A DNA stretch of 64,000 nt from Neoroseomonas marina. GTDB taxonomy: Bacteria > Pseudomonadota > Alphaproteobacteria > Acetobacterales > Acetobacteraceae. The DNA is taken from positions 620,001 through 684,000 of the forward strand of contig NZ_JABBKX010000001.1 in the NCBI RefSeq assembly GCF_012927745.1. Direction: 5' to 3'. The notes beneath the pieces are model-generated. The model made no database searches. It was not told where the DNA came from and was given only the letters and a program-made list of their open reading frames with translations. The position numbers were made by a program, and so were the translations under genes. This document shows positions 33,150-51,561 of the stretch, piece by piece; within the stretch, counting starts at the first letter, position 1; every line of letters begins with the position of its first letter.

Positions 33150-33694
<545 letters not shown>

Positions 33695-36283: not shown

Positions 36284-36286
36284 GGC

Positions 36287-38413
36287 TCAGCGGCCCATCA
36301 CGAAGCGGAAATTGGAGAGGTAGGATTCGTAGAGCCGCACGGGTTCGACGCTGCCCGGCAAGGCTCTGGCCACCGCCTGGAAGCGCCGGTCGTCATCGGT
36401 GACGATGTACGCGATGCGCAAGCCGGCAGCAGCGGCGACCGCGTCGCAGAACGCAGTGGCGCGGTCGAGATCGACAAGCAGGCCGTAGGTGTCGGCGACC
36501 TCCCACCCAGCCGGCGGAAGCTCTTCGATGCGCCTGCCTTCCGCCCCGGCGCGCATCCACAGAAGCGGTGCGATGCGCCTGAAGGCCAGGTTGTGGCTGA
36601 CGGCGACCGGGGTCTCGTAGGTCAGGGTGAAGAACTCGGCATTCTCCTCGAATCCCTCGCTCATCGGGAATTCGTCGGTGAACTTGTAGTCGCCTTCGAT
36701 ATCCTTCCCCTCCGGGGTCGTGCCTGTGATTGCCGCGGCAATGCGGGGTTTTGTGATGTAGTCGCAGATGCCGCACTTTTCCCAATCTGGATCGCCGGGG
36801 CGCAGGCCCGCCTTCCGCAGGGCAGCCTGCTCATCGGCCGCCACCTCGTTGTTGGTGACCGAGATGCACTGACGCTGCCCACCGTCTTGCCGGTTGAGGC
36901 GCATGACCGCGTGCGCGGTGGTGCCGGAGCCTGCAAAGAAGTCCAGTATTGTAGCATCTTTCTTCTTGCCCACCACGAAACGCAGGCAATCTTCGACCGC
37001 GTAGACTGACTTCGGATAGGGAAACCGCCTCCCAGGCACCAAGGACTTCAACATTCCTGCCCCGTGTTCGGAAGCGCTGTGCGCAACTAAATTCCAAATG
37101 GTCGTCGGATTTCGTGTTCCTAAGGAATCGGCGAACTCTAACTCCAGCGCACCTTCGGAGTCCTTCCCAACAGCCACAACTTCCCCACCCTCCAACATTT
37201 GCCGTATGCCAGTCTGCAGATAGGATACTGAGCGGAGGCCGGTCTTCTTATCGCGCTTGCCAAATTTCGCGTGCCCAATCGCAAGATATTCTCGCAGGGA
37301 TGGCGGGCTGAGACGCCACATTAGTTCTTGCCCGCTCTGGTCGATCGGCCAAATTGCCAAAGTGCCCGGCGGCGCAGGTACATCCTCCGGACGTACGTCC
37401 GCTGGTGGCGGCTCCCCTGTTGAGTGATACCTTCCCGTTTTCTCATCAATGTAAATTGGGAAGAACATCGACGGAATGCGCTGGCGTCGACTTCCCTCCC
37501 CGTTTCTCATCAATCCGGCCCAACGAACTTTTCTGGTTTCTCCTTCGATCTCACGCAGCATGTCTGAGCGCCAAGGCGTGACCGCTGCCGCTCCGACAAA
37601 TACGAAAAAAATGTACTCATCAACGCGGCTAAATCTACCAGCCCTCGCCGATCCTTTCGGATTTATCACCGAGCTGACCATCTGGATGGACGCATCTGGG
37701 AAAACTTGTTCAAGCAGCAAACCCAGTCGGAGGTATTCCTTTTCATCAATCGTGATGATCAGTGTAGACGCCGTTGGATTGAGTAGATTTCGTGAGACCA
37801 TGAGGCGTCGCTCGATGAAGGCGAGCCACTTCGAGTGACGATAAAGGTCCTCAGCCTCGACGTAGTCGTTATTATACTTCCAATCCCGTGCGCCAGTGTT
37901 GTAGGGCGGGTCGATGTAGATCACGTCGATCTTCCCGCGGTGCGTGTAGGTCAGCGCCTCAAGTACATGGAAATTCTCGCCATTAATCACCGTGTGAAAC
38001 GGCTTGTCACCGCCGCGTTCCACCTTTCTGGTGCTGACGAGGCCTGGGTAGATGAAGTCGCGGAACTCGGCCACCACCACTAGGTCAGCAACGGATACCT
38101 CGGCCGTTTCGGGCGGGTCCGCGTCGATCAGCGCCACGTGCGCCACCTTCGCCTTGTCCTTCCCCGCGATCCTGGTGACCCGCCAGAGCCGCTGGTCGCC
38201 GCGCTCGACCGCGCCCCGGGGCGGCAGGATCCGCACCTTATCGCCTCGGCGCACAGGCCGGCCGGGGAGTTCGACACTCTCGGGCCGATGCCGCTCGAAG
38301 TTCAGCCCGAAGGCACGGCGCGATGCGAGCGCCTTGAACTCACGCTCAAGCTCGTCTCCAAGGGCGCTATCCTTGGCCTTCGCCCTGGCGATCAGATCTG
38401 TCAGACGCGACAC
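36287..38413 (-). CDS. mod: Site-specific DNA methyltransferase (type III Mod-like)
   Basis: A 708-residue adenine-N6-type methyltransferase. The catalytic motif IV is DVIYIDPPYNTG at about residues 163-174. The S-adenosylmethionine motif I is ILDFFAGSGTTAHAVM around residue 486, so the order is that of type III Mod proteins. The region between, about 300 residues, should hold the target recognition domain. Codon use across the middle of the gene is distinctly A/T-richer than at its ends, compatible with a swapped recognition domain. It is directly followed by Res (3-base spacing) and protects the host site while giving Res its specificity. Confidence 0.9.
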   Translation of the reverse strand: MSRLTDLIARAKAKDSALGDELEREFKALASRRAFGLNFERHRPESVELPGRPVRRGDKVRILPPRGAVERGDQRLWRVTRIAGKDKAKVAHVALIDADPPETAEVSVADLVVVAEFRDFIYPGLVSTRKVERGGDKPFHTVINGENFHVLEALTYTHRGKIDVIYIDPPYNTGARDWKYNNDYVEAEDLYRHSKWLAFIERRLMVSRNLLNPTASTLIITIDEKEYLRLGLLLEQVFPDASIQMVSSVINPKGSARAGRFSRVDEYIFFVFVGAAAVTPWRSDMLREIEGETRKVRWAGLMRNGEGSRRQRIPSMFFPIYIDEKTGRYHSTGEPPPADVRPEDVPAPPGTLAIWPIDQSGQELMWRLSPPSLREYLAIGHAKFGKRDKKTGLRSVSYLQTGIRQMLEGGEVVAVGKDSEGALELEFADSLGTRNPTTIWNLVAHSASEHGAGMLKSLVPGRRFPYPKSVYAVEDCLRFVVGKKKDATILDFFAGSGTTAHAVMRLNRQDGGQRQCISVTNNEVAADEQAALRKAGLRPGDPDWEKCGICDYITKPRIAAAITGTTPEGKDIEGDYKFTDEFPMSEGFEENAEFFTLTYETPVAVSHNLAFRRIAPLLWMRAGAEGRRIEELPPAGWEVADTYGLLVDLDRATAFCDAVAAAAGLRIAYIVTDDDRRFQAVARALPGSVEPVRLYESYLSNFRFVMGR

Positions 38414-38504
38414 AGTACGACCTCTTCATTCCAAGCGGCATCGGCGGAAGTCCGACCATTCTGGGCTGAGCAGTTCAGCTCATGGATCACGCGGGAAAAT
38501 CCAT

Positions 38505-40151
38505 CTAGGCCGCCGCCTGGGGTGAAATGGACCAAATGCGCAAGGCGCGCTCCAGCAGGTCGGTCTGCCGCGCGTGCAACTGGTCCTTCGTCCACTCCTC
38601 GGCCGACAGAATGGGCTTCGTCGTGTCGAAGGAGACGCGGTTGTTCCGCTCTGCGTAGATCTTCTTCTTACGCTCGAAAGGAAAGTACTGGGCCTTGTAG
38701 TTCTTGATCCCGGCCAGCAGTGCCAGGTTGCCGAGCCTGTGCAGCCAGAGGCGGTGCTCGTCATCCGTGAAGCGTTCGCGCCAGGAGGCGTCCTTCAACG
38801 CCTGCGGCAGCACGTGCTCGATGGTGATCTTGCCGCCGAAATCCTTCGAGACTGACTCATCCTGGTCAGCTTCTTCCAACCGCAGGAGAACGGCCTGCGC
38901 GAAGGGGCGGCCGTAGACATCGCCATCCAGCAGCGTGCGGAACTCGTCATCGTTGGCGTTTGCACGGACGATGGCACGGATCTCGTCGGCACTCTTCCCG
39001 GCACGGATCGCCGTGATGAGCTGGAAGTAGGCGGTCAGGCGAGCGGTGAACGCCAGGCGCCGGATCCAATTCTGGTAGGTGATCCGCTCCAGCAGGTCGA
39101 TGAACTCCTCCTCGGGCAGGCCGGCAACAGGCTTATTCAGGTAGGCCAGCAGCGGAGGGATCCATTCCTCAAACGCAACCCGTTGCAGGGAACGCAGCGC
39201 GCGCCGCGCCGCCGGTGCCTCGAAGTCGCATCGGAGAATCCGCAGGTAGTTGCGCGCGGAGGTGTTGAGATCTTCCAGGAATGCGAACGGTGTGGTCGCG
39301 GACTCAATGAGGGGCCCGAACTCCTCGTGGAGGGATTTCCGGGCCTTCGTCGCGACTGCCGAGCTCCGGTGGTGCGCCAGGAACTGATCCAGCCGTTCAA
39401 TGCCGATCTGCTCTTCAAGCTCCAGCCACGCTTCGTCCAACTCGCCGCTGCGCGTGGATTCCCCGCCGAGCTCGGCGAAAAGCAAGTTTTTGATGAGGTC
39501 GGCATTCGTAAGCGCCATGCCGCGCGCGTTCAGCACGTTGAATAGGCGATACGCGGATTGCCAGGATGCGGTGGTGACGAACACCACGTAGACCTTGCTG
39601 AGGAGATAGTTGGCAAAGAGCTTCAGCGTCGTCTGGTCGTGCTGCGCGATGAAGGCGTCGATGGTTTCCAGGTTCTCGACGATTCGCTGCTTCGGGGCGT
39701 CCTGCTCCTTGGCGATGTCCTTGCGAACCGCCTCGGGCACGACCTCTCCGGCGAGCACATACTTCCGGAAGAAGGTCTGGTCCCGCTGACGGAGAGTGAG
39801 GCGCGGCGTCTCCTCCTCGCCGGTCAGCGCGTTGCGCGGCAGGACGCGTCGGCCAAGTTCGGACTTCGCGGGCTCGTCCACCGCATCCCGCAGCCGAGAG
39901 AAGATCAGATTGAGGGTGGTCAGCCGCTGCTGCCCGTCCACCACGTCGTAAAGACGGCCTTTCTCCTGCTCGATGGTGATGAGCGAGCCGATGAAATACT
40001 CTGCGTCCTTCGCCTCGTAGGAATCCCAAACGTCGTCAAGAAGCTGCTCGACGTTCGTCTTTTCCCACGAATAAGGCCGCTGGTAGGCCGGAATATTGTA
40101 GCGAATTTGCTCGGTGAGAATTTGGCTTATCGTTCTCTCAGCGGCTTCCAT
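38505..40151 (-). CDS. DUF262/DUF1524 protein (GmrSD-like, possible type IV restriction)
   Basis: A 548-residue cytosolic protein. The N-terminal DUF262 domain has the ParB-like signatures RPYSWE (about 25-30) and VDGQQRLTTLN (about 71-81). The C-terminal DUF1524 domain has the His-Asn nuclease pattern ITIEHVLPQALKD, then LHRLGNLALLAGIKNYKAQ and FERKKKIY. This is the architecture of fused GmrS-GmrD proteins, which cleave glucosylated or otherwise modified phage DNA, and of related anti-phage proteins such as BrxU. The start at 40151 begins with the conserved region; the frame extends 36 codons further without family resemblance. It lies 91 bases upstream of mod on the same strand. Confidence 0.88.
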   Translation of the reverse strand: MEAAERTISQILTEQIRYNIPAYQRPYSWEKTNVEQLLDDVWDSYEAKDAEYFIGSLITIEQEKGRLYDVVDGQQRLTTLNLIFSRLRDAVDEPAKSELGRRVLPRNALTGEEETPRLTLRQRDQTFFRKYVLAGEVVPEAVRKDIAKEQDAPKQRIVENLETIDAFIAQHDQTTLKLFANYLLSKVYVVFVTTASWQSAYRLFNVLNARGMALTNADLIKNLLFAELGGESTRSGELDEAWLELEEQIGIERLDQFLAHHRSSAVATKARKSLHEEFGPLIESATTPFAFLEDLNTSARNYLRILRCDFEAPAARRALRSLQRVAFEEWIPPLLAYLNKPVAGLPEEEFIDLLERITYQNWIRRLAFTARLTAYFQLITAIRAGKSADEIRAIVRANANDDEFRTLLDGDVYGRPFAQAVLLRLEEADQDESVSKDFGGKITIEHVLPQALKDASWRERFTDDEHRLWLHRLGNLALLAGIKNYKAQYFPFERKKKIYAERNNRVSFDTTKPILSAEEWTKDQLHARQTDLLERALRIWSISPQAAA

Positions 40152-40269
40152 GGTCGTCCCGATCTCTGAGGGCAACGGTCCGGACGAGGCTCCGGCCCGA
40201 TATTGGCCCCGCTGCCGAATCTTCACTACAGAGTAGGGGCTGGCAGAGCTGAGTGACAAGCGGAGCTAC

Positions 40270-40500
40270 CTCGGCTGGGTAACGAATTCCAGCCGCTGCA
40301 CCTGCCGCGCCCACTACTCGTCGAATTGCTTCATCAGCCCGGGCAGGGTCATCCCCTCCGGTTGCCGCCCGTCCAGGATCGCCTCGACTATGTCTTGCGC
40401 AAGCCGCGTCAGCCGCAGCACGCGCGAGACGCAGGAAAATTGATCTTCTCGGCCGCGGCCACCTCGTTGATGGCGGCGTCGGGATCAAGCTTTACAGGCC
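40270..40500 (-). pseudogene. 3' remnant of a serine recombinase
   Basis: Leftward frames read PVKLDPDAAINEVAAAEKIN, then after a frameshift near 40430 VSRVLRLTRLAQDIVEAILDG and RQPEGMTLPGLMKQF, followed by a stop. This is the usual C-terminal end of large serine recombinases in alphaproteobacterial phages and islands. It begins directly after the stop codon of the subtilase fragment, whose other side abuts the 5' recombinase piece at 41455-41904. Confidence 0.75.
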
Positions 40501-40501
40501 G

Positions 40502-41460
40502 CTAAGGTTCGATGGCGATGGCCACGCCGACCTGCTGCGCGACTGGTGTCCAGATGTCCGTCTCGACGCCCGGCGTCTCAATGGAGACAACGAGCGCGTA
40601 TCGCGCGCCCAGGTCGCTGCGATCGCGCGCCGGCTGGTCCTTCCACCAGCCACTCACCGGATAAACAGCGATGACTCCTCGTTCGGCGACATCGGCAGCG
40701 TTGCAGGTGAGGATGTCCGAGTGGAGGGAACCTCGGTTGCGGGCCTGCTCCCCAAGATACCACTCCGACGCGGCGCCGCCGGTCACCGGCTTGGCCTCGT
40801 CCTCATCAAGCGCCTTCTTGTTCAAACGCTTCTGAAACTCCTCAACCGCCTCCGTCGGACCTTTCACTTCAAAGCGCAGACCGTGCGACGCGTAGCGGTG
40901 GCGCTTTCTCCAGCCGCGTCGACCGGGGTTCGGCTCGATGAAGTACGAGAGCGTGATACGCAGGCGCACCGGCGTCGCGCCAAGTTCTGCGAGTACCTCA
41001 CGCGGCCAAGGAAGCTCGAAGAAGTGCAGTTCGCGCATCTTGCCCTTCGCGAACGGGCGGATGCTGCTCTGTGCCACTAGGGTGAGCGCGTCATTTGCGC
41101 TCCGCAGGGCACGTTCGGCGCTAGGCACACCGAAGCCATAGCGCTGGACGAGCTTCGCACGTGCGCGCTTGCCGCTCGCGTCGCGCAGATGAGTCTGCAT
41201 CTGAGCCGACCATTCCGCCGAATGCACCACGAGGGCGCGCAGCGTCTCGGGCCAGTAGCTCGGGTACTCGGCCGAGATGAGGGCAGCAAGGCGCGCGGCC
41301 TGCGCCGTCGCCGCACTGGTCGCCCAGCTGAGCACGAAGGATTTGTCGGCAGGCTTGAAGTACGTCGCGAGAAGGGAGAGGTCAGGGCACGGGAAGTCGA
41401 TCTCACCCTTGGCGTTCTTCACGACGTTGCCGCCCTCGAAGACTACGTCGGGCTTTATAC
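40502..41460 (-). pseudogene. C-terminal half of an IetS/IteS-type S8 (subtilisin-like) anti-phage peptidase
   Basis: About 320 codons homologous to the end of the subtilase partner of the AAA ATPase-S8 peptidase defence pair (IetAS/IteAS). RIKPDVVFEGGN starts the homology. The segment WATSAATAQAARLAALI holds the catalytic serine region, YWPETLRALVVHSAEW follows, and the end has SLHSDILTCNAADVAERGVIAVYPVSG, cited here by its core DVAERGVIAVYPVSGWW. The N-terminal half with the Asp and His of the triad is missing, and no AAA ATPase gene is present, so the system is dead. Upstream, the frame runs on to 41653 through recombinase sequence in the wrong frame. The fragment lies exactly between the two recombinase pieces. 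Confidence 0.8.
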
Positions 41461-41904
41461 GTCGCTCTTCGTCAGCATGCGGCCCCGCTTCGTCGTGGCG
41501 CCCTCGGCGCGCAGTGCCTGCACCAGCCGCGTGCAGGACTCGGTTTCCACGAAACCCTGGAAGATCCGCCGCACCAACCCGGCCTCGGCGTCGTTCACCA
41601 CCAGCTTCCGTTCGCGCACGTCGTAGCCGAGCGGCACGAAGCCGCCCATCCACATGCCGCGCTTGCGCGACGCCGCCACCTTGTCGCGGATGCGCTCGCC
41701 GATGACCTCGCGTTCGAACTGAGCAAAGCTCAGCAGGATGTTGAGCGTCAGCCGCCCCATGCTGGTGGTGGTGTTGAACGACTGCGTCACCGAAACAAAC
41801 GTGACGTTGTTCGCGTCGAACACCTCGACCAGCTTGGTGAAGTCGACCAGCGAGCGGGAGAGGCGGTCACCCGCGCCGGCGACCTTTGGCGCTGCGGCGA
41901 CCAC
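41455..41904 (-). pseudogene. Serine recombinase, internal piece (both ends lost)
   Basis: The homology begins at GDRLSRSLVDFTKLVEVF, runs through FNTTTSMGRLTLNILLSFAQFERE, cited by its core SMGRLTLNILLSFAQ, and GMWMGGFVPLGYDVRER, and stops at GRMLTKSDV where the subtilase fragment takes over. The N-terminal 65 residues or so with the catalytic serine are missing, as is the DNA-binding middle part. The remaining C-terminal tail is at 40270-40500. It cannot be active. At the other end it abuts the 5'-truncated methyltransferase gene head to head. Confidence 0.85.
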
Positions 41905-41940
41905 CGCCTGCTCTGCGGCGACGCCACCAAGCTCGACGAC

Positions 41941-42666
41941 GTGCAGCGCGCCCTCGGCGCTGATCGGCTGGCCGACATGGCCCTCACGGATCCGCCCTAC
42001 AACGTCGCCTACCAGGGCGGCACCGCGGCCAGGATGACCATCGCCAACGACGCGCTGGGCCAGGGCTTCCTGGACTTCCTCCGCCCGGCGCTAGCGAACC
42101 TGCTCTCGGTGACGAAGGGCGCCTGCTACGTCTGCATGTCGTCGTCGGAATGGCCGACGCTGCACCGCGCATGGCAGGAGGCCGGCGGGAAGTGGTCGAG
42201 CACTATCATCTGGGCGAAGAACACCTTCGCGCTCGGTCGCGCCGACTACCACCAGCAGTTCGAGGCCATGCTGTACGGCTGGCGCCAGGGCAGCCAGCAT
42301 TATTGGTGCGGCGCCCGCGACCAGGGAAATGTCTGGCATTTCGACAAGCCGGCGCGAAACGACCTGCATCCGACCATGAAGCCGGTCGCGCTGGTCGAGC
42401 GCGCCATCCGCAACAGCAGCAAGCCGCGCGACACGGTGCTGGACTGCTTCGGCGGGTCGGGCACCACCATGATCGCGGCGGAGCGCACCGGGCGGCGCGC
42501 CGTCCTGCTGGAGATCGATCCGGCCTATGCCGACGTCATCGTGCGGCGCTGGCAGGAGGTGACAGGCGAGGCGGCCGTGCTGGAAGGTGATGATCGCATC
42601 TTTGCCGATGTCGCCGCGGCACGCGACGACAACGCCAGGCCATTCTGTGGTCCTGGATCAGGGTAG
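41941..42666 (+). CDS. DNA methyltransferase, N-terminally truncated (ParB-methyltransferase type)
   Basis: The encoded 241 residues contain a complete-looking adenine methyltransferase module: MALTDPPYNVAYQGG near residue 18 and VLDCFGGSGTTMIAAERTG near 162, separated by DLHPTMKPVALVERAI. Homology continues upstream of the GTG at 41941 in the same frame (DHRLLCGDATKLDD, from about 41896) and then breaks off at the junction with the recombinase fragment. In intact relatives a ParB-like nuclease domain of about 150-200 residues precedes this module. Such enzymes are typical of prophages and islands. Whether the truncated form is made or active is unknown. Confidence 0.7.
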   Translation: MQRALGADRLADMALTDPPYNVAYQGGTAARMTIANDALGQGFLDFLRPALANLLSVTKGACYVCMSSSEWPTLHRAWQEAGGKWSSTIIWAKNTFALGRADYHQQFEAMLYGWRQGSQHYWCGARDQGNVWHFDKPARNDLHPTMKPVALVERAIRNSSKPRDTVLDCFGGSGTTMIAAERTGRRAVLLEIDPAYADVIVRRWQEVTGEAAVLEGDDRIFADVAAARDDNARPFCGPGSG

Positions 42667-42674
42667 ACCAGGAG

Positions 42675-43004
42675 CTACAGCCCTTCGGGCTCCTGCATCC
42701 AGGCTGGAATGTCGCGCTGCGCATGCAGCACGCGCCAGACGTCGAGGTGGTCCTCGCGCTCCACGTAGAACACCAAATACGGGTAGCGCCGCAGCGGCCA
42801 GGCGCGGAGGCCTTCCAGCCGCAGCTCGAAGGCAAAGCGCGGCGAGCCCACCGCCGGATGCTGAGCGATCCGCCGGAAGGCCCGCTCCAGCGCGTCAATG
42901 AAGGCCAACGCGACCGGCTCGCCCGCCTCCGCCGCGTAGTGGGCGATGGCTTGGTCGATGTCCCGCTGCGCCGCCTCCCGCGGAATGACCGGCTTGGCGG
43001 TCAC
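42675..43004 (-). CDS. parE: ParE/RelE-type toxin
   Basis: A 109-residue toxin of the ParE/RelE superfamily. The conserved pattern is EAAQRDIDQAIAHYAAEAG, then ALERAFRRIAQHPAVGSPR, then LRAWPLRRYPYLVFYVERED with DVWRVLHAQRDIP at the end. ParE proteins inhibit DNA gyrase; RelE relatives cut mRNA; the sequence favours ParE because of the ParD-like partner. It starts with GTG overlapping the antitoxin stop (GTGA), so translation is coupled. The last residues are unusually extended. Confidence 0.9.
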   Translation of the reverse strand: MTAKPVIPREAAQRDIDQAIAHYAAEAGEPVALAFIDALERAFRRIAQHPAVGSPRFAFELRLEGLRAWPLRRYPYLVFYVEREDHLDVWRVLHAQRDIPAWMQEPEGL

Positions 43005-44264: not shown

Positions 44265-45638
44265 TTATTGTCTGGCTAAGTAAATCTTTAACATATCCAG
44301 CTCTCTACTCAAATCAAGCACTAGTGGCTGGTATCGTTCGATCCAAGATCTCATTGCATTTGATGAGATTGGAGTCGCAGCACTTGTCAGCTCCGCCAAG
44401 AGTAGAGCACGACCGAGAAGTAGGCCGTGCAGCACCGGCGCGCGCCGAGGCAACTCGCGCTCCAGCTCGGGTGCAGCTGCTTGGGCAGAGACGATGACTG
44501 CATTCAGCGCACTCTCGGTCCTGCGTGCCTCGTTCTGCAACAAGCGCCACTTCGCCTCGGTTGGGTCATTTGCGTAATGCACCGCAAGCGGAAGCAGATA
44601 GTACCTTTGGCCTAAGACAAGTTCTTCCGCACCCGAACGGAAGAGCTCCGATCGTACCAGTTCTACATTTGCGATTGCCAACTGTCTCGCGTCCAACTCA
44701 GAACCATGTTGGCAGCGCTGTACAACTTCGAACGCCCCTGCATCTGCTCCTAGACTGGGATTGAAAGGCGCTCCCGCATTTGGGCGTAGTTCTGGAATGA
44801 GCCGGCCTCCGACGCAGGCTGTGCTCTCCGCGCCACCGCTGCAGTTCTGCTGTATTGTGGCGACGTCTGCGATGAAGTTTCGCGCGACGCGGAGAGGTAA
44901 GATGACATTCTGGCCCTGGATATCGCGCTCTCGGAAACCGCCAAGCACGATGCCGACCACGCTCCCGGCAAGCGACAGTGCTGGCCCGCCCGAGTTTCCC
45001 GGATTGACGTCGGCGCCTGTGAGCCACGCCTCTCCGAAACTCACCGTGGTTGTCCGTATCGTGCCATCGGTCTGGTCGTAATCCTGACCGCGGGGGAAGC
45101 CGAGCGCCACGATCCGCTCACCGGTACGCCGCGGCTGGTCGAAACACAGTGGCAGGGCGCGATGGGCGAGCGAGGGGTCCGCCGCCGTAAGCATAGCTAC
45201 GTCAAACTCAGGGTGTAGCCGCAGGGCGCCAGCAGGCAGCGGGAAGCTACGACCCTGGTGCGTACCAATTTGACCGAGCACCGCAATCTGAGTGAGCGGG
45301 CGCTGGTCCGAGCCCAGGAACAAGTGCTTTGCGGTGAGAAGCCGCCGATCTTCCGAGATAAAGAACCCGCTTCCAGTCCTGTTTTCCACCCGCAAACCCG
45401 TCGCCGGGTCCACCCCACTCACCGTGAGATGAACCACACCCAGCTGATAACGGGTCCTGAAATCCGGAACTCCATTCTGCGCGCGTAGCTGAGCTGGCGC
45501 TAACAGCGTGAGCGCAACAGGAAGGAGGATCGCAAGTGAGCGGGATCGAGCGCCCAACTGCGACCTCAGCTGCAACGCCCTAAGGATTGGCACGTGCCAG
45601 CGCTGGCGCTGGAAGCGCTTGAAAAGGAAGATCCGCAC
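44265..45638 (-). CDS. Exported trypsin-like serine protease with helical C-terminal region
   Basis: A 457-residue protein. Residues about 30-54 (LAILLPVALTLLAPAQLRAQ) form a signal peptide, although the GTG start at 45638 gives a long n-region; a TTG about 27 codons later with a TGAGG site is a good alternative. The S1/V8-like protease domain (about 58-270) has a complete triad: His105 in TAKHLFLG, Asp146 in PEFDVAML and Ser216 in PGNSGGPAL. The last 180 residues are mainly helical, Leu/Arg/Glu-rich and of no known family. Bases 44826-45471 appear identical to part of the next gene, from which it differs only in its signal peptide and C-terminal region. Substrate and partner are unknown. Confidence 0.88.
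   Translation of the reverse strand: MRIFLFKRFQRQRWHVPILRALQLRSQLGARSRSLAILLPVALTLLAPAQLRAQNGVPDFRTRYQLGVVHLTVSGVDPATGLRVENRTGSGFFISEDRRLLTAKHLFLGSDQRPLTQIAVLGQIGTHQGRSFPLPAGALRLHPEFDVAMLTAADPSLAHRALPLCFDQPRRTGERIVALGFPRGQDYDQTDGTIRTTTVSFGEAWLTGADVNPGNSGGPALSLAGSVVGIVLGGFRERDIQGQNVILPLRVARNFIADVATIQQNCSGGAESTACVGGRLIPELRPNAGAPFNPSLGADAGAFEVVQRCQHGSELDARQLAIANVELVRSELFRSGAEELVLGQRYYLLPLAVHYANDPTEAKWRLLQNEARRTESALNAVIVSAQAAAPELERELPRRAPVLHGLLLGRALLLAELTSAATPISSNAMRSWIERYQPLVLDLSRELDMLKIYLARQ
44826..45471 (-). repeat. 646-bp direct repeat, copy 1
   Basis: The segment encoding the mature N-terminus and the whole serine protease domain appears identical, base for base by eye, to 46892-47537. The flanking sequences on both sides are unrelated. 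There are no terminal inverted repeats or transposase, so this looks like a recent duplication or gene conversion of the protease module. Confidence 0.9.
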
Positions 45639-45691
45639 AGCTAACCACCCCCCTCAAGACTTGGTTGCTCTGAGCCGGAGTTGCTGCAGCA

Positions 45692-47650
45692 TCATCGGCT
45701 CCCTGCAAGGACGCCAACTAAGCGATCACGCGCGGCGGAGTGCAGCCAGACGAAGACTCTATCGCCTTCGAGGCTCGCCCTAGCGGCGTCAAGCTGCGGC
45801 ACCGTCGCAGCCTCGCGAGCGTGCCCGAGCATCAATATGGCGTTGTCCACGTCGCCATCTATTTGGCGACCGGCAACTAGCGCACCCAGGACTGCCCTCA
45901 GAGCGTATAGGCGTGCGAGATCATAGGCCGTGTCAAAGCCATATGCGCGCGCCAAGTCGGTATTTCGGACCAGCCCCCAGGCTTCGCGCTGGGAGGGGAG
46001 TCCGACCTCATCAATCGTCGCGATCATGCGGCTTGCCTGAGCAGTTCGCTCGTCCGGCCCCAACAATGCCAACTGATAAACCACTGCATCGAGCGTCAGT
46101 GTCGCCAGGATATTCAACGGCGGGATTCGTTCAGCCGGGCTCGCTAGTCCCTGCTCTTGAGCATTCCAAGCCGAGAGCAAGCGCTGCTGCGTCGCCCAAA
46201 GAGCCTGGGACCACGAGTCAGTTGGGGTCGCGATTGTAGCTTTCGCTCGCCGCTGCAGTACCCTGGCCTTTTGATTTAGGTTGCGCAGGGAGGCCGGTTC
46301 GCGACGAAGCGCCTCATCGATGCGCCTGTCGGCTAGGGCTAGAAATTCATCGCTCCATGGATCCGACAGCCTTCCAGTGCTGGGCCGCGCGAGGTTGTAG
46401 TAAAAGCGACTCCATAGCCGAAGGAGCTCTGGCTTCTGATCGTCTTCGGCGATCGCAAAACAGTCCTGCATCAGTTTATCGCCGTCACGTGCGATCCTAT
46501 CAAAGCGTGCGCGATCAGTGTGGTGAATCTGCGAGATCTCAAGATACGTGGCTGCTTTCTCAAGCATGGCCTCCGCAAGATCTCGGCGGCTGGAGATCTC
46601 GCGGAAGAAGCCGATCATCTCATCTGCCCAGCGAAGTGCGTTAGCTTGTTCGGGGCTTCCGTACTCCTGCAGACGGTAGGACCTGATCGTCAACGACAGC
46701 GCCCTGCGAAGGCGTTGCGGAGCCACCCCGCGGCGAACTGCAATACCAGCGTTCTGCCATTCGTGCTCGAAGATCGCACGACTGGATGTGAGTCCAACAG
46801 GGAGCGGCTGACCAGGTATGAGCGCACCCGCCGAACGGGCTTGTTCAGCCGAAGCAATCCACCGGTCCGCAGCAGCCCCGAGAGGCTCTTGCTCCGCGCC
46901 ACCGCTGCAGTTCTGCTGTATTGTGGCGACGTCTGCGATGAAGTTTCGCGCGACGCGGAGAGGTAAGATGACATTCTGGCCCTGGATATCGCGCTCTCGG
47001 AAACCGCCAAGCACGATGCCGACCACGCTCCCGGCAAGCGACAGTGCTGGCCCGCCCGAGTTTCCCGGATTGACGTCGGCGCCTGTGAGCCACGCCTCTC
47101 CGAAACTCACCGTGGTTGTCCGTATCGTGCCATCGGTCTGGTCGTAATCCTGACCGCGGGGGAAGCCGAGCGCCACGATCCGCTCACCGGTACGCCGCGG
47201 CTGGTCGAAACACAGTGGCAGGGCGCGATGGGCGAGCGAGGGGTCCGCCGCCGTAAGCATAGCTACGTCAAACTCAGGGTGTAGCCGCAGGGCGCCAGCA
47301 GGCAGCGGGAAGCTACGACCCTGGTGCGTACCAATTTGACCGAGCACCGCAATCTGAGTGAGCGGGCGCTGGTCCGAGCCCAGGAACAAGTGCTTTGCGG
47401 TGAGAAGCCGCCGATCTTCCGAGATAAAGAACCCGCTTCCAGTCCTGTTTTCCACCCGCAAACCCGTCGCCGGGTCCACCCCACTCACCGTGAGATGAAC
47501 CACACCCAGCTGATAACGGGTCCTGAAATCCGGAACTTCCTGAGCCGGCGACGAAACTGGCGAAACCAAAGCGAGGAAGAGAGAAGCTCCGAATGCGCCG
47601 AAGGAGTGTATCGTCATCGATGCCGACCGGATTGCACGCAAGACCCTCAT
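45692..47650 (-). CDS. Exported trypsin-like serine protease with TPR-like C-terminal region
   Basis: A 652-residue protein. A signal peptide (FGAFGASLFLALVSPVSSPAQ, about 17-37) precedes a protease domain identical to that of the following gene: His87, Asp128 and Ser198 form the triad. The C-terminal 400 residues are helical and end with repeats that resemble TPR units, for instance DLARLYALRAVLGALVAG and LGHAREAATVPQLDAARAS. Such a region could bind a partner or substrate. The gene starts 11 bases after the upstream lipoprotein stop and ends 53 bases before the shorter protease, so the three are probably one operon. I do not recognise a named family for the C-terminal part. Confidence 0.88.
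   Translation of the reverse strand: MRVLRAIRSASMTIHSFGAFGASLFLALVSPVSSPAQEVPDFRTRYQLGVVHLTVSGVDPATGLRVENRTGSGFFISEDRRLLTAKHLFLGSDQRPLTQIAVLGQIGTHQGRSFPLPAGALRLHPEFDVAMLTAADPSLAHRALPLCFDQPRRTGERIVALGFPRGQDYDQTDGTIRTTTVSFGEAWLTGADVNPGNSGGPALSLAGSVVGIVLGGFRERDIQGQNVILPLRVARNFIADVATIQQNCSGGAEQEPLGAAADRWIASAEQARSAGALIPGQPLPVGLTSSRAIFEHEWQNAGIAVRRGVAPQRLRRALSLTIRSYRLQEYGSPEQANALRWADEMIGFFREISSRRDLAEAMLEKAATYLEISQIHHTDRARFDRIARDGDKLMQDCFAIAEDDQKPELLRLWSRFYYNLARPSTGRLSDPWSDEFLALADRRIDEALRREPASLRNLNQKARVLQRRAKATIATPTDSWSQALWATQQRLLSAWNAQEQGLASPAERIPPLNILATLTLDAVVYQLALLGPDERTAQASRMIATIDEVGLPSQREAWGLVRNTDLARAYGFDTAYDLARLYALRAVLGALVAGRQIDGDVDNAILMLGHAREAATVPQLDAARASLEGDRVFVWLHSAARDRLVGVLAGSR
46892..47537 (-). 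repeat. 646-bp direct repeat, copy 2
   Basis: This is the partner of 44826-45471 at a constant offset of 2066 bases. The repeat ends abruptly within codons on both sides, at the signal peptide border and just after the protease domain. Confidence 0.9.
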
Positions 47651-47661
47651 CTCCCCAAGCG

Positions 47662-48483
47662 TTACCAGTTAGCTGGTGCCAGTCGGGTGGGCGGAAGAGG
47701 GGATACTTCAAATACGCGCTGAAACTGATCACCCCCACCCAACGCGGTTGCACTCGGCGCGCCAGCAACGCCCGGGGGCGCGGTCACTGCCACGTCGACA
47801 AGACGTTCTCGCGTTATGCATACGAACAGCGGCGTGGAGAAATCACTCGTAAGGCGATACGTCGCGCCTCGCGTCAATGACACGTTTGCTCGTCCGCTCG
47901 CCGCGCGCTCCAAGACTGCATCCAAACCGAGGCTGCTTACCTGCTGGGCGCTCAATTCCATAGTCATGCTCCGCGCACTCAGCGCGTCTCTAATCAGAAA
48001 ATAGTCGCTCCCGGGCACCCGCGACGCGGTTTGCATCCATGCGAGCGCGGCTCGGTGCATCGGATCATCGTACGTTCGATGCTCATCCACGCCAGTGTAT
48101 GTGACGGACCCCGCCCATTGCCCTTGTGCCTCGCCGACAATATTTGCGCTAAAGCCAGGAAGCAGTTGCTGAAGCAAACCCATGGTGAGGCTCGCGGCCT
48201 CAGCGCCCGTGCGTGTAGCCGCTGCCGTCTGCACGTTCTGGGCTGTGTAAACAGCATTCCGCAGAGCAGCGTCGCCCAGGAGATTGTACACGAGGAACAG
48301 GTTGCCAGCGCCATCTCGGCGCATGATTGTACCAGGCCCCTCAAAGCCGCTCGGCACCTGAAGGCAGCTGTACTGGCCGATGGCAGGAGGTGCTGGAGGA
48401 TCCGTAGTGCCGCATGCGGTAAGGGCGGCAATTAGCAAGAGCAACAATGAAGTCCTGCTTGGCTTCCTTGCAGGCCACATCAC
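47662..48483 (-). CDS. Predicted lipoprotein of unknown function
   Basis: A 273-residue protein with a lipoprotein signal (SLLLLLIAALTAC, lipobox LTAC, cysteine near residue 24) followed by a Pro-rich tether (TTDPPAPPAIG). The mature part has no family I recognise; visible features are FLVYNLLGDAALRNAVYTA, a central helical stretch and the C-terminal strand TYRLTSDFSTPLFVCITRERL. It is the first gene of the leftward protease operon, 11 bases before the 652-residue protease, and diverges from the metalloprotease gene. It may anchor or inhibit the proteases, which is only inference from context. Confidence 0.8.
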   Translation of the reverse strand: MMWPARKPSRTSLLLLLIAALTACGTTDPPAPPAIGQYSCLQVPSGFEGPGTIMRRDGAGNLFLVYNLLGDAALRNAVYTAQNVQTAAATRTGAEAASLTMGLLQQLLPGFSANIVGEAQGQWAGSVTYTGVDEHRTYDDPMHRAALAWMQTASRVPGSDYFLIRDALSARSMTMELSAQQVSSLGLDAVLERAASGRANVSLTRGATYRLTSDFSTPLFVCITRERLVDVAVTAPPGVAGAPSATALGGGDQFQRVFEVSPLPPTRLAPANW

Positions 48484-48791
48484 ACTCCATCCTCCTTCAC
48501 AAACTCGAGTTCGGGCTCATTCAGACGCGATGATGGCTGCCCGCATGCGCACGCCCAGCCTTAACTCATCAATATGCTCCCGGCCCCTCCGTCCTTCCCA
48601 CTTTAGCCTCAGCCAATTGCGGCCAGCCGCCTGCATCAGTAACCGGCAGAAAAATACTGCAAACTTGCCCGCACCCAGCACGTAGCGGAGGGCAGAGCCT
48701 TGGGCCTCGGAACGCGTACACGCCAGTTTCCTATTTGCGAGTGGTAAAGCACGTCGCAAAATACTATAGCGAAACAAAACGAGGCTGAGCA
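48484..48791. other. Divergent intergenic region of the protease cluster
   Basis: 308 bases separate two divergent operons of exported proteins. The right end is AT-rich (ACTATAG-like sequences at 48763-48769, then GAGG before the metalloprotease ATG) and probably contains that promoter, but no well-spaced -35 box stands out. The left end has a purine-poor stretch upstream of the lipoprotein gene. Overlapping minus-strand frames here look spurious. Confidence 0.45.
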
Positions 48792-49667
48792 ATGCGAATT
48801 CGAAGGCGTCGTTTGCTCGGGGCAGGATGTACCTTTCTCGGATGTTGCGCGGTTCGCGCAGGGCCAGCGCAAACTGTGTCCTCACCGCTCTGCGTGGCCG
48901 TACCACCGCCCCCTCGCGCGGCAGGTTCGGCAGGTTACCGACCCTTCGCTGGTCCTCCGGCCACTGATGTAGCCGAATTCTCCCCATTCATGAGCGACCG
49001 CCTAGTCCGCGAGTTTGCTTTCACGCCGTTCGGCCTCAGCATGGCGGAAGACCGCTGGACACCTAGGGATGGGTCGACGCCGGGCGGCAAGGTGACACTT
49101 GGCGTGCATTTTCTGTCCGCTAGTGCGGACGAACGCGCTGCCTGCGAACGAGCTGCTTCGGCTTGGCTTCGCGATGGCGTAGAGCACTACCTCGCCTTCG
49201 AGATGGATGTTTCGGCGGCGCGCGCACACATTCGCGTTCGCTTTGGACCGGGGGGCAATTGGTCGCTGATTGGGCGCCATGCGAGAGCGGAGCGTAACCT
49301 CTCCGCACCTACGATGAACATCATACCCGGCCAGCCCGACTACATCATCATGCACGAGTTTGGGCACGCGCTCGGTCTTCGCCACGAACACCAGCATCCG
49401 GATGCCGGCATTCAGTGGCGTGAGGACGTGGTGATTGCTGCAATGGCCGGTAATGGACCGGCGTGGACGCCGGCTTACATCCGCGCGAACGTGCTCCAGC
49501 CTCTGAGCAATACCGCGCGCTGCGTCGGTGACCCAACCCCTAATGTCAACTCGGTAATGATGTACGATTTCCCCGAGGAATGGACCTGGAACCGTGTGCG
49601 CGGCGAGATGGGACGAAGCATCACCGATGGGGACCGACGCTGTGTTCGCGGGATATACTCGCTATGA
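48792..49667 (+). CDS. Exported zinc metalloprotease (metzincin type)
   Basis: A 291-residue protein beginning with MRIRRRRLLGAGCTFLG, a possible twin-arginine signal. The zinc site is IIMHEFGHALGLRHEHQH with His188, Glu189, His192 and His198, the HExxHxxGxxH pattern of metzincins. A Met-turn candidate, SVMMYDFPEEW, follows around residue 255. The overall layout is closest to astacin/matrixin-like bacterial proteases. The ribosome site GAGG precedes the ATG, and the stop overlaps the next start (ATGA). It shares its operon with an OmpA-like lipoprotein and a serine protease, which suggests that they act together outside the cytoplasm. Confidence 0.88.
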   Translation: MRIRRRRLLGAGCTFLGCCAVRAGPAQTVSSPLCVAVPPPPRAAGSAGYRPFAGPPATDVAEFSPFMSDRLVREFAFTPFGLSMAEDRWTPRDGSTPGGKVTLGVHFLSASADERAACERAASAWLRDGVEHYLAFEMDVSAARAHIRVRFGPGGNWSLIGRHARAERNLSAPTMNIIPGQPDYIIMHEFGHALGLRHEHQHPDAGIQWREDVVIAAMAGNGPAWTPAYIRANVLQPLSNTARCVGDPTPNVNSVMMYDFPEEWTWNRVRGEMGRSITDGDRRCVRGIYSL

Positions 49668-50038
49668 AGAATGCGCGGAGACGGTTAGTGACGTTAGTGG
49701 CGCTCAATTTGTTGGCCGCCTGTAGTACCGACGCACCGGTGCAAAGGGTTGTTTTTCTTGACTCGGGAGTTTCTCTCAATCCGCCCGCGCGGACCGTCGT
49801 ATCACAGGCTGCTCGCGAAGCATCTGAGCGGCCGCAGACGAACGTGCTCATTATTTGGTTCGCTACGCCTGATAGCGAATTTGTCGGTGCCGCTTTCGCT
49901 CGTGCGACTGCAGTCCGCGCCGCGCTCGTTGCCGAGGGTGTAGCAGAAAGGCGCATTTCGACCGTACAACGCACGCCACGCGCAGGGATCGACGCCAGCG
50001 TCGAGGCGCGTCGAGTGCTTATAGAGATTGGAGTTTAG
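49664..50038 (+). CDS. Small OmpA-like lipoprotein
   Basis: A 124-residue protein with a lipoprotein signal (RLVTLVALNLLAAC, lipobox LAAC). The mature part resembles a short OmpA C-terminal domain: strand VVFLDSGVSLNPPAR, helix, strand NVLIIWFATP, then FARATAVRAALVAEGVAERRI and a final SVEARRVLIEI. In OmpA-like proteins this fold binds peptidoglycan; the usual Asp and Arg ligands are only partly matched. Its start overlaps the metalloprotease stop and its stop lies 2 bases before the next start, so the three genes are tightly coupled. Confidence 0.75.
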   Translation: MKNARRRLVTLVALNLLAACSTDAPVQRVVFLDSGVSLNPPARTVVSQAAREASERPQTNVLIIWFATPDSEFVGAAFARATAVRAALVAEGVAERRISTVQRTPRAGIDASVEARRVLIEIGV

Positions 50039-50040
50039 CG

Positions 50041-51561
50041 ATGTTGAGGGCGCTCGTGCTGTCAACTATTCTATTCGCACCAGTCTTCCCGAATGCTCAG
50101 AATCTCCCGAATTTTCGAGATCAGCATGTTCTCGGAATATTGCATCTAACAGTGACCGGTACAGATCCTGATACAGGCCGGCCTGTTGCTCCACGTACCG
50201 GCACCGCGTTCTTTATTGGAGATGGGCAGCGCGTTCTTACGGCTGCGCATCTTTTCAAGACCACGGGAAGCCGACCTTTGACAGAAGTAACGGTGACCGC
50301 TCGGTTAGGAAGTGACCGCGGCCAACAGATCGGTCTCATCGAGAATTCCCTGCGCATGCACCGCGAGTTCGACGCTGCGATGTTGCGGGCCGACACTCCA
50401 GGCCTCAGGGAGACGCCGTTGCCAATCTGTTTCCGTGAACCGCTCCAGGTCGGGAACACCGCCGTTGCGCTCGGCTTTCCGCTTGGACGCAGCTACGATC
50501 AGGTGCGCGTCACCGTGCGCTCACGCCAGGCAAGCTTTCCTGGCTTTCCCGCAGAGGCACTCGTCGTTGATGGTGACCTGAACGAGGGCAATTCGGGCGG
50601 ACCGGCGATTTCCCTTCGCGGCAGTGTCGCCGCGATCGTGCTGGGCGGGTTACGAGGAGAGGGAGCGCAAGGCCTTAATGCGGTGTTGCCGCTACACGTA
50701 GTTGAGCCTTGGATTCGAGAAGTCGCGAGGATCACTGAGCATTGTAATCCAACGCTGCCGGCAGCAACCGAGCCAATTCGGAGCCGGCCGGCTCGCCGCG
50801 AGTATTCAGGAGAAGTGTTGCTTGCAGGTGACCGGGAGATCGCCGCCGACGAACTGGTCGCAGCGGGCGCTATCCTTCGCGGCGTACCGCTCACGCGTGC
50901 TCCCGGGGGCATGCCTGGGAGCCCGGGAGCGCCTGGCGGTACCGGAAATGGAAGCGGTGCGAACGGCCTTCCTGGTAGTGATGGTGGAGGTGGGCAGTCT
51001 GGTCAGGCTGGAGCGACTGCTCCCGAAATCGTAGTCCGCGCGCGCACGCTCATCGGTCAGCTAACCGTAGACAACAGTGGTCAGGCGGGTGGCGACGGTG
51101 GCCGGGGTGGCGACGGCGGCGCAGGAGGGCCGGGCGCACGTGGCTCATCCGCCGTTGCCGGGATCGTCGATTGCAGCTCCGGGCCAGGGCGCGGCGGCGA
51201 CGGCGGCCGGGGCGGAGCAGCGGGCTCAGGCGGGGCAGCGGGCTCAGGCGGTAATGCTGGACGGATCGTCGTTGCGCTGGATGAGTGGACACCAGGCGCA
51301 TCTCTCGACTTGGTCGCGAGAGGTGGTCAGGCAGGAACGCACGGCAGAGCGGGGGCGCCTGGCGGCCCAGGAGCTCGCGGACCTCAAGGGGCGACACCTG
51401 GGATTTGTGGTCTAGGCGGATTTGGACGGGATGGATCGCCTGGCGTTTCGGGCGCGCCCGGTCGGGATGGTGCTGGCGCTTCGCCAGGCCAAGACGCAGA
51501 AGTGGTTCTCATTATTGGCGGGCAAGAGCGGCGCGCAACTGGCCGACTTCAGCATCGCTAG
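50041..51561 (+). CDS. Exported trypsin-like serine protease with Gly-rich collagen-like tail
   Basis: A 506-residue protein with signal peptide MLRALVLSTILFAPVFPNAQ and a protease domain clearly related to, but diverged from, the two leftward proteases. The triad is His70 in LTAAHLFK, Asp111 in REFDAAML and Ser185 in EGNSGGPAI. After a short linker the residues from about 290 to 490 are Gly-rich with collagen-like Gly-x-y runs (GGMPGSPGAPGGTGNG, GRAGAPGGPGARGPQG), interrupted by two short ordered segments (APEIVVRARTLIGQLTVDN and GRIVVALDEWTPGASLDLV) and ending with VVLIIGGQERRATGRL. The tail could act as a stalk or adhesive surface. Base composition is mixed: the Gly-rich part is more GC-rich than the protease part. 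Confidence 0.88.
   Translation: MLRALVLSTILFAPVFPNAQNLPNFRDQHVLGILHLTVTGTDPDTGRPVAPRTGTAFFIGDGQRVLTAAHLFKTTGSRPLTEVTVTARLGSDRGQQIGLIENSLRMHREFDAAMLRADTPGLRETPLPICFREPLQVGNTAVALGFPLGRSYDQVRVTVRSRQASFPGFPAEALVVDGDLNEGNSGGPAISLRGSVAAIVLGGLRGEGAQGLNAVLPLHVVEPWIREVARITEHCNPTLPAATEPIRSRPARREYSGEVLLAGDREIAADELVAAGAILRGVPLTRAPGGMPGSPGAPGGTGNGSGANGLPGSDGGGGQSGQAGATAPEIVVRARTLIGQLTVDNSGQAGGDGGRGGDGGAGGPGARGSSAVAGIVDCSSGPGRGGDGGRGGAAGSGGAAGSGGNAGRIVVALDEWTPGASLDLVARGGQAGTHGRAGAPGGPGARGPQGATPGICGLGGFGRDGSPGVSGAPGRDGAGASPGQDAEVVLIIGGQERRATGRLQHR

Follow-up and report, generated by a model that had tools for sequence, protein, structure and literature searches.

What kind of system is encoded by six adjacent genes that all specify exported products, three of them trypsin-like serine proteases, in the genome of Neoroseomonas marina? 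The genes occupy positions 44265-51561 of a 64-kb stretch (64,000 nucleotides) of contig NZ_JABBKX010000001.1, the whole of which is called the window here. A preliminary description of this DNA had presented them as two divergent operons matching no described system. The explanation put forward, tentatively and with slightly more doubt than confidence, is that the cluster is a mobile, envelope-located pore system activated by proteases, probably for conflict or defence, whose pore former may be a lipoprotein related to the bacterial gasdermins (bGSDMs), pore-forming proteins that breach cells in immunity.

All six open reading frames (ORFs) were located where they had been placed, in two divergent operons, and a signal-like N-terminus is present on each product by inspection and hydropathy count (simple criteria). 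On the reverse strand lipoprotein 1 (47662-48483; 273 amino acids, lipobox LTAC) is followed after 11 bases by protease B (45692-47650) and this after 53 bases by protease A (44265-45638). On the forward strand lie a metzincin (48792-49667), lipoprotein 2 (49664-50038; lipobox LAAC), which overlaps the metzincin gene by 4 bases, and, 2 bases further on, protease C (50041-51561). This tight spacing fits the co-expression that had been proposed. The 308 bp between the divergent starts (48484-48791) presumably hold the promoters; a consensus promoter scan of the cluster, this region included, gave no sigma-70-like site.

Each of the three proteases has a signal peptide, a trypsin-like module and a tail, the latter being 186 amino acids long in A, 397 amino acids long and helical-looking in B, and Gly-rich in C. 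Pfam Trypsin_2 is well above its cut-off in A, B and C (E-values 4.5e-19, 1.7e-19, and 9.2e-14 respectively), and the motifs of the His-Asp-Ser triad are intact in all three, as had been noticed earlier. The hydrophobic stretch of protease A covers residues 35-46, and translation may therefore begin further in. The metzincin is astacin-like (Pfam Astacin, 4.1e-5, 23.8 bits with a cut-off of 22.5), possessing the HExxHxxGxxH motif (HEFGHALGLRH) and Met-turn (VMMY) of the astacin/M12A proteases; its signal is the weakest of the six (hydropathy 1.80) and looks Tat-like by eye. Lipoprotein 2 is OmpA-like, with a Pfam OmpA match below the cut-off (E-value 0.0011, 19.7 bits, cut-off 27.2).

The gasdermin lead comes from lipoprotein 1. 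The PADLOC bGSDM model, in output that shows no cut-off, matched its residues 68-220 over model positions 47-207 (E-value 1.4e-5, 22.7 bits), the mature protein without the signal peptide gave an E-value of 1e-5, and five shuffles and one reversal of the sequence gave no match at E<=10. The signal is mostly in the C-terminal half of the protein, which alone gave 5.2e-5 with the bGSDM model. Beside a match of the signal region to LptM (0.0064), NCBIfam gave a weak match to its prokaryotic gasdermin family, NF051890 (E-value 0.0011, 18.8 bits). In six-frame searches the lipoprotein 1 gene was the best place in 142 genomes for NF051890 (19.0 bits, the next at 16.1) and in 60 genomes for PDLC02986 (20.1 bits, the next at 16.4), the two genome sets being of the same class and overlapping.

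The layout of the protein and of its operon is consistent with this. The mature protein has 250 residues and the model 257, mature residue 44 pairs with model position 46, and by ungapped extrapolation from the alignment the lipobox cysteine (Cys24) falls at about model position 3; in the Bradyrhizobium gasdermin, Cys3 is palmitoylated (PMC9079055). An Arg lies 17 residues from the C-terminal end. Part of PMC9612521 describes bGSDMs as being cut after Leu or Arg approximately 20 residues from the C-terminus, often with proteases adjacent, and lipoprotein 1 does adjoin the genes for proteases B and A. The Lysobacter gasdermin operon has four genes, among them a "second trypsin-like protease", and shields E. 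coli from phages (PMC9079055). In its candidate gasdermin beside trypsin-like proteases, its mature length, its Arg near the C-terminus and perhaps its predicted N-terminal lipid-bearing cysteine, the left operon resembles the bGSDM operons of Lysobacter enzymogenes and Runella, and the earlier statement that no described system has this gene set is not supported as it was worded. It differs from those operons in that its parts carry lipoprotein and Sec-type signals, in that the set is without a recognised ATPase or CARD-NLR partner, and in the weakness of the family similarity (18.8-23.1 bits).

A number of results weigh against this assignment. The NF051890 score lies far below the family cut-off of 100 bits, and the gasdermin models of NCBIfam and PADLOC can presumably not be counted as independent. 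In the six-frame searches the gene stands only a little above background, and matches below cut-off came from control genomes as well (1 of 14 for NF051890 and 3 of 14 at E<=10 for PDLC02986). The N-terminal half of the protein alone gave no score. Lipoprotein 1 has no Pfam family at E<=1, and phmmer found no gasdermin at E<=10 in the PDB, a database that should contain bGSDM chains as 7N50 is cited in a portion of PMC9950537. Pfam recognised no ATPase or sensor in the six proteins; nor was a CARD-NLR feature found, there being no such Pfam family in the six and no match of the PADLOC models to the tails of A and B at E<=10, although a divergent CARD could escape such scans. The lipoproteins of the other cassettes discussed below have no gasdermin match and no similarity to lipoprotein 1. 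The relationship is a statistical one, and on these scores the balance tips slightly towards lipoprotein 1 being related to the gasdermins.

On the proposed explanation, lipoprotein 1 would be a gasdermin relative that gained a lipoprotein signal and is exported and lipidated on its first cysteine, its own C-terminal segment keeping it inactive. The exported proteases B and A would cut this segment, for example after the Arg mentioned, freeing the pore former in the envelope. The right operon, with its metzincin, probable peptidoglycan-binding lipoprotein 2 and protease C bearing an adhesive-looking tail, may sense, anchor or activate in the manner of a zymogen cascade. From the arrangement of these parts we infer the cleavage, the cascade, pore formation and a use against phages or competitors. 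A bolder version, which is possible but more doubtful again, would have a whole pyroptosis-type module relocated to the envelope: the lipoprotein would form the pore, two Sec-exported trypsin-like activators would share a freshly copied catalytic cassette, and a metzincin/trypsin/peptidoglycan-binding branch would be linked to them. Killing would then be set off from outside the cytoplasm, for instance by the attachment of a phage or by damage to the envelope, and the exported metzincin-trypsin cassettes of phages and plasmids would make up a wider, undescribed class. Among the papers listed in searches of the open-access literature, none has a title that concerns an exported bacterial gasdermin; export is not raised in PMC9079055, and the words "periplasm" and "lipoprotein" have no occurrence in the main texts of the gasdermin papers PMC9612521 and PMC13236601.

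The two putative activators share more than a family. One block of exactly 646 bp on the reverse strand (44826-45471 and 46892-47537, an offset of 2066) is identical in proteases A and B; it begins close to the mature N-terminus and ends where the catalytic domain does. Its flanks are dissimilar, the signals and tails of A and B being unrelated, while the same region of protease C is 47-48% identical to A and B. Two genes that differ in signal and tail have therefore had their catalytic module duplicated or homogenised, which makes the earlier claim of one protease module combined with different tails stronger than it was when stated. The copies are direct, so a recombinant between them would be expected to begin as B and to end with the tail of A. 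An assembly artefact was considered as the source of the repeat; a mis-join is unlikely, since the two direct copies lie on one contig and the frames are open across the junctions.

As for the tails, no Pfam repeat family was detected at E<=1 in the one described as resembling tetratricopeptide repeats. AlphaFold models of two of the proteases are both of low confidence (mean predicted local distance difference test score, pLDDT, 45.7 and 59.3); that of protease B (the 45.7 model) is mostly helical past residue 231, with tail blocks reaching 82, and the fold matches listed for both models are chymotrypsin-like proteases. Protease C ends in a Gly-rich domain that is also found elsewhere. It occurs in a protease of a viral contig (L123), which aligns with protease C along its full length, the Gly-rich tails being 44% identical; part of this likeness may be composition, BLASTP with adjustment giving 1e-5. 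A third copy, without a protease, is present in an exported-looking protein of 351 amino acids in the region 1397-6659 of L140; judged by eye, it is preceded there by an ORF with a TIR-like start and by one resembling a nucleotidyltransferase.

The viral contig carries a cassette of its own, composed of a lipoprotein, a metzincin and the trypsin-like protease, with 4 bp of overlap. It is preceded by a DUF6441 gene and followed by tail genes, and the genes for capsid, tail tube and portal are close by. The GC content of this cassette is 0.58-0.61 compared with 0.70-0.71 for the phage; that of the window cluster is 0.61 compared with 0.71-0.73 for the host. Phage morons are recognised as extra genes that lie among structural genes of the phage and depart from them in GC, an arrangement seen here in the L123 cassette only. 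A search of viral contigs with the L123 protease returned its own contig only, with no match in phage or plasmid records, and its metzincin had no match in phage records. Lipoprotein 1 was found in no viral contig. The scan of viral contigs with the tail of protease C confirmed nothing and is uninformative, as the tail-bearing L123 was also left unconfirmed (low complexity).

A weak plasmid match pointed to a further cassette in Bradyrhizobium, in which a lipoprotein and an exported metzincin are joined by an exported protease of the trypsin type and by an alpha/beta-hydrolase (DUF900) whose start is lipobox-like. By match coordinates, 14 bases separate the end of the metzincin match from the protease match in all eight Bradyrhizobium plasmid records that have the protease (two of the eight were inspected directly). 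Sinorhizobium terangae has a relative of that metzincin, together with a trypsin-like protease (7.7e-10 for Trypsin_2) and a propeller/peptidoglycan-binding protein that is exported. In S. sojae a subtilase and a DUF1353 protein precede a metzincin relative, and in R. leguminosarum an M23 protein lies beside one. Both the phage and the Bradyrhizobium cassettes are like the window cluster in combining lipoprotein, metzincin and trypsin at tight spacing; they differ in that their metzincins are distant from that of the window and their lipoproteins dissimilar. The preliminary description had made co-occurrence elsewhere its test, and in this respect the core combination recurs on a phage contig and on Bradyrhizobium plasmids, with metzincin and trypsin also in S. 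terangae, whereas the six-gene set in full was found nowhere else in the data searched. It should be mentioned that genes for an ATP-binding protein and an S8 peptidase, overlapping by annotation, as well as HigB and HipA-type genes, lie near the cassette on a Bradyrhizobium plasmid, and that the former pair (L122, 1-1535) is IetAS-like by reading of the annotation.

The pairing of metzincin and trypsin recurs but is not the rule. Exported-type metzincin loci, counted by lineage, number 15 (Bradyrhizobium as one, L116-L121, L123-L128, L138, and L139; two further plasmid records, from Caballeronia and Deinococcus, are omitted), and a trypsin-like ORF is adjacent by motif in three of them (L027, L120, L123) and within 3 kb in four (adding L121, at 2.7 kb), leaving 12 of 15 without an adjacent trypsin motif. 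Metzincins of the window type were taken as the best 80 of at least 239 confirmed among 581 listed stretches of genome contigs; here a motif-based trypsin-like ORF lies within 200 bp in 2/80 (L074, L109) and within 3 kb in 3/80 (adding L058). A stricter motif expression gave 3/80 (L054, L058, L074), and is too strict, as it misses L120 and L123. The 12 loci weigh against the proposed pore system, and the usually unpaired state of the window-type metzincin speaks against a six-gene system of fixed composition. Metzincins of the exported type are rare, being present in 2 of 385 genomes of the class, 2 of 9 genomes of one order and 3 of 398 genomes of the phylum.

Metzincins were also seen in other company. 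Nine of the 80 window-type genes lie directly 5′ of caspase-like genes identified by a motif expression (L040, L046, L049, L050, L054, L055, L057, L067, L099); these nine and L029 match Pfam Peptidase_C14 with E-values of 4.2e-4 or lower (L040 falling slightly short of the cut-off), with L067 also matching VMAP-C, and seven of the nine linked metzincins have no signal peptide by a crude rule. By annotation, L033 has a metzincin, a caspase and then a trypsin-like gene. In Nocardia (L109, 6448-7860) an ORF of 470 amino acids with the trypsin-like motif GSSGSP, identified by motif only, directly precedes a metzincin with a 4-base overlap. Metzincin genes stand beside phage-like genes, by ORF reading, in six IMG/VR contigs (L129, L130, L131, L132, L133, L134), the first of which also has an ORF resembling by eye a caspase/CHAT peptidase.

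The protease family of the cluster is rare in the data searched. Protease B has some match in 183 of 194 genomes (its own included), the best outside its own genome, among 193 others of which 34 are of the same genus, being 39.6 bits. A module profile search of 385 genomes of the class at E<=1e-14, with at most seven candidates scored per genome, found only its own genome, which has 15 Trypsin_2 matches, three of these being the cluster proteases. Scans for the module gave 28 pattern matches in genome contigs and 50 in viral contigs, none confirmed; both are weak tests, the viral scan having also missed the distant relative in L123. Blastn of the whole cluster gave no match in plasmids, and protease B had a single distant match (34.9%) in phage records.

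Trypsin-like proteases in conflict systems have been described by Kaur et al. (2020; PMC7159879) and in a 2021 sequel (PMC8195603), which treat trypsin and caspase systems and in whose main texts "signal peptide" has no occurrence. The NucA-trypsin "System 3", as presented in part of PMC7159879, is comparable in having trypsin paralogues in one operon and a proposed proteolytic cascade. It is different in that the six window proteins include no NucA nuclease (Pfam, E<=1) and all have export signals.

The neighbourhood of the cluster (33695-43004) contains, according to family scans, type III Res and Mod genes, a GmrSD/HEC-06-like gene, IetS and resolvase fragments, a DNA methylase and ParE. 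The defence genes reported next to the cluster are thus confirmed as a type III restriction-modification system, a GmrSD/HEC-06-type protein and a C-terminal fragment of IetS; any defence role drawn from them, or from the neighbours of the Bradyrhizobium cassette, is guilt by association. At 40502-41904 the C-terminal part of an IetS-type subtilase beside a serine resolvase fragment appears to be a broken defence gene in the island. A tRNA-Ser gene is located at 33150-33239 and the GC content drops from 0.73 to about 0.61. The description of the island as tRNA-linked fared less well, there being no exact 14-mer common to 33150-33400 and the window beyond 33.5 kb. The neighbouring speE has matches at E<=1e-60 in only 3 of 34 other genomes of the genus (45-46% identity), too weak a conservation for an empty-site comparison.

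Several other roles could be considered for such a cluster. The proteases and metzincin may act outside on neighbouring cells or phages, as a cassette for secreted antagonism or predation, with lipoprotein 1 either a pore-forming toxin at the surface or a lipoprotein of unrelated kind; this would be akin to the cholesterol-dependent cytolysin-like toxins (CDCLs) rather than to self-killing defence. CDCLs are exported. They are antibacterial pore formers needing proteolytic activation, according to a portion of PMC11952106, and serve here as a model by analogy only, no CDC/MACPF-type family having been found in the Pfam or NCBIfam scans. The signal-like N-termini of all products and the adhesive-looking Gly-rich tail of protease C speak for such a role, which is nonetheless unlikely given that Pfam recognised no secretion system or immunity gene in the cluster, that the lipoboxes would suggest retention and that defence genes adjoin it. 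Somewhat less likely than this is an envelope-modification (moron) cassette derived from a phage or plasmid, whose exported proteases would strip off or cover surface receptors and keep other phages out, with no pore involved. The L123 cassette, between phage structural genes and of moron-like low GC, would suit it, as would the cassettes on plasmids; however, no phage structural gene was recognised with Pfam among the 14 window proteins from 33.7 to 51.6 kb, and lipoprotein 1 and the two proteases with identical modules would be left unexplained.

The similarity of the protease domains to HtrA/DegP, DegS and MarP (Rv3671c), in fold and in weak family matches, raises the prospect of HtrA-like housekeeping paralogues, engaged in the general quality control of envelope proteins or in proteolysis for nutrients. 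Against this, HtrA-family cut-offs are not reached (TIGR02037, 36.7 bits for protease A with a cut-off of 416.2), Pfam shows no PDZ domain at E<=1, the tails are different, and the best match to protease B in the 193 other genomes is the 39.6 bits given above; this role is improbable. The protease-activated pore system is retained as the best explanation, at the tentative level stated at the outset.

The identical module of A and B shows that proteases of this kind are re-equipped with new signals and tails through recombination. Carried by phage and plasmid DNA, the recurrent exported cassettes of metzincin, trypsin and lipoprotein make up a testable group of mobile envelope systems. If lipoprotein 1 is indeed an exported gasdermin, lipid anchoring by the lipoprotein pathway would replace palmitoylation, and protease-gated killing by pores would be extended to signals outside the cytoplasm.

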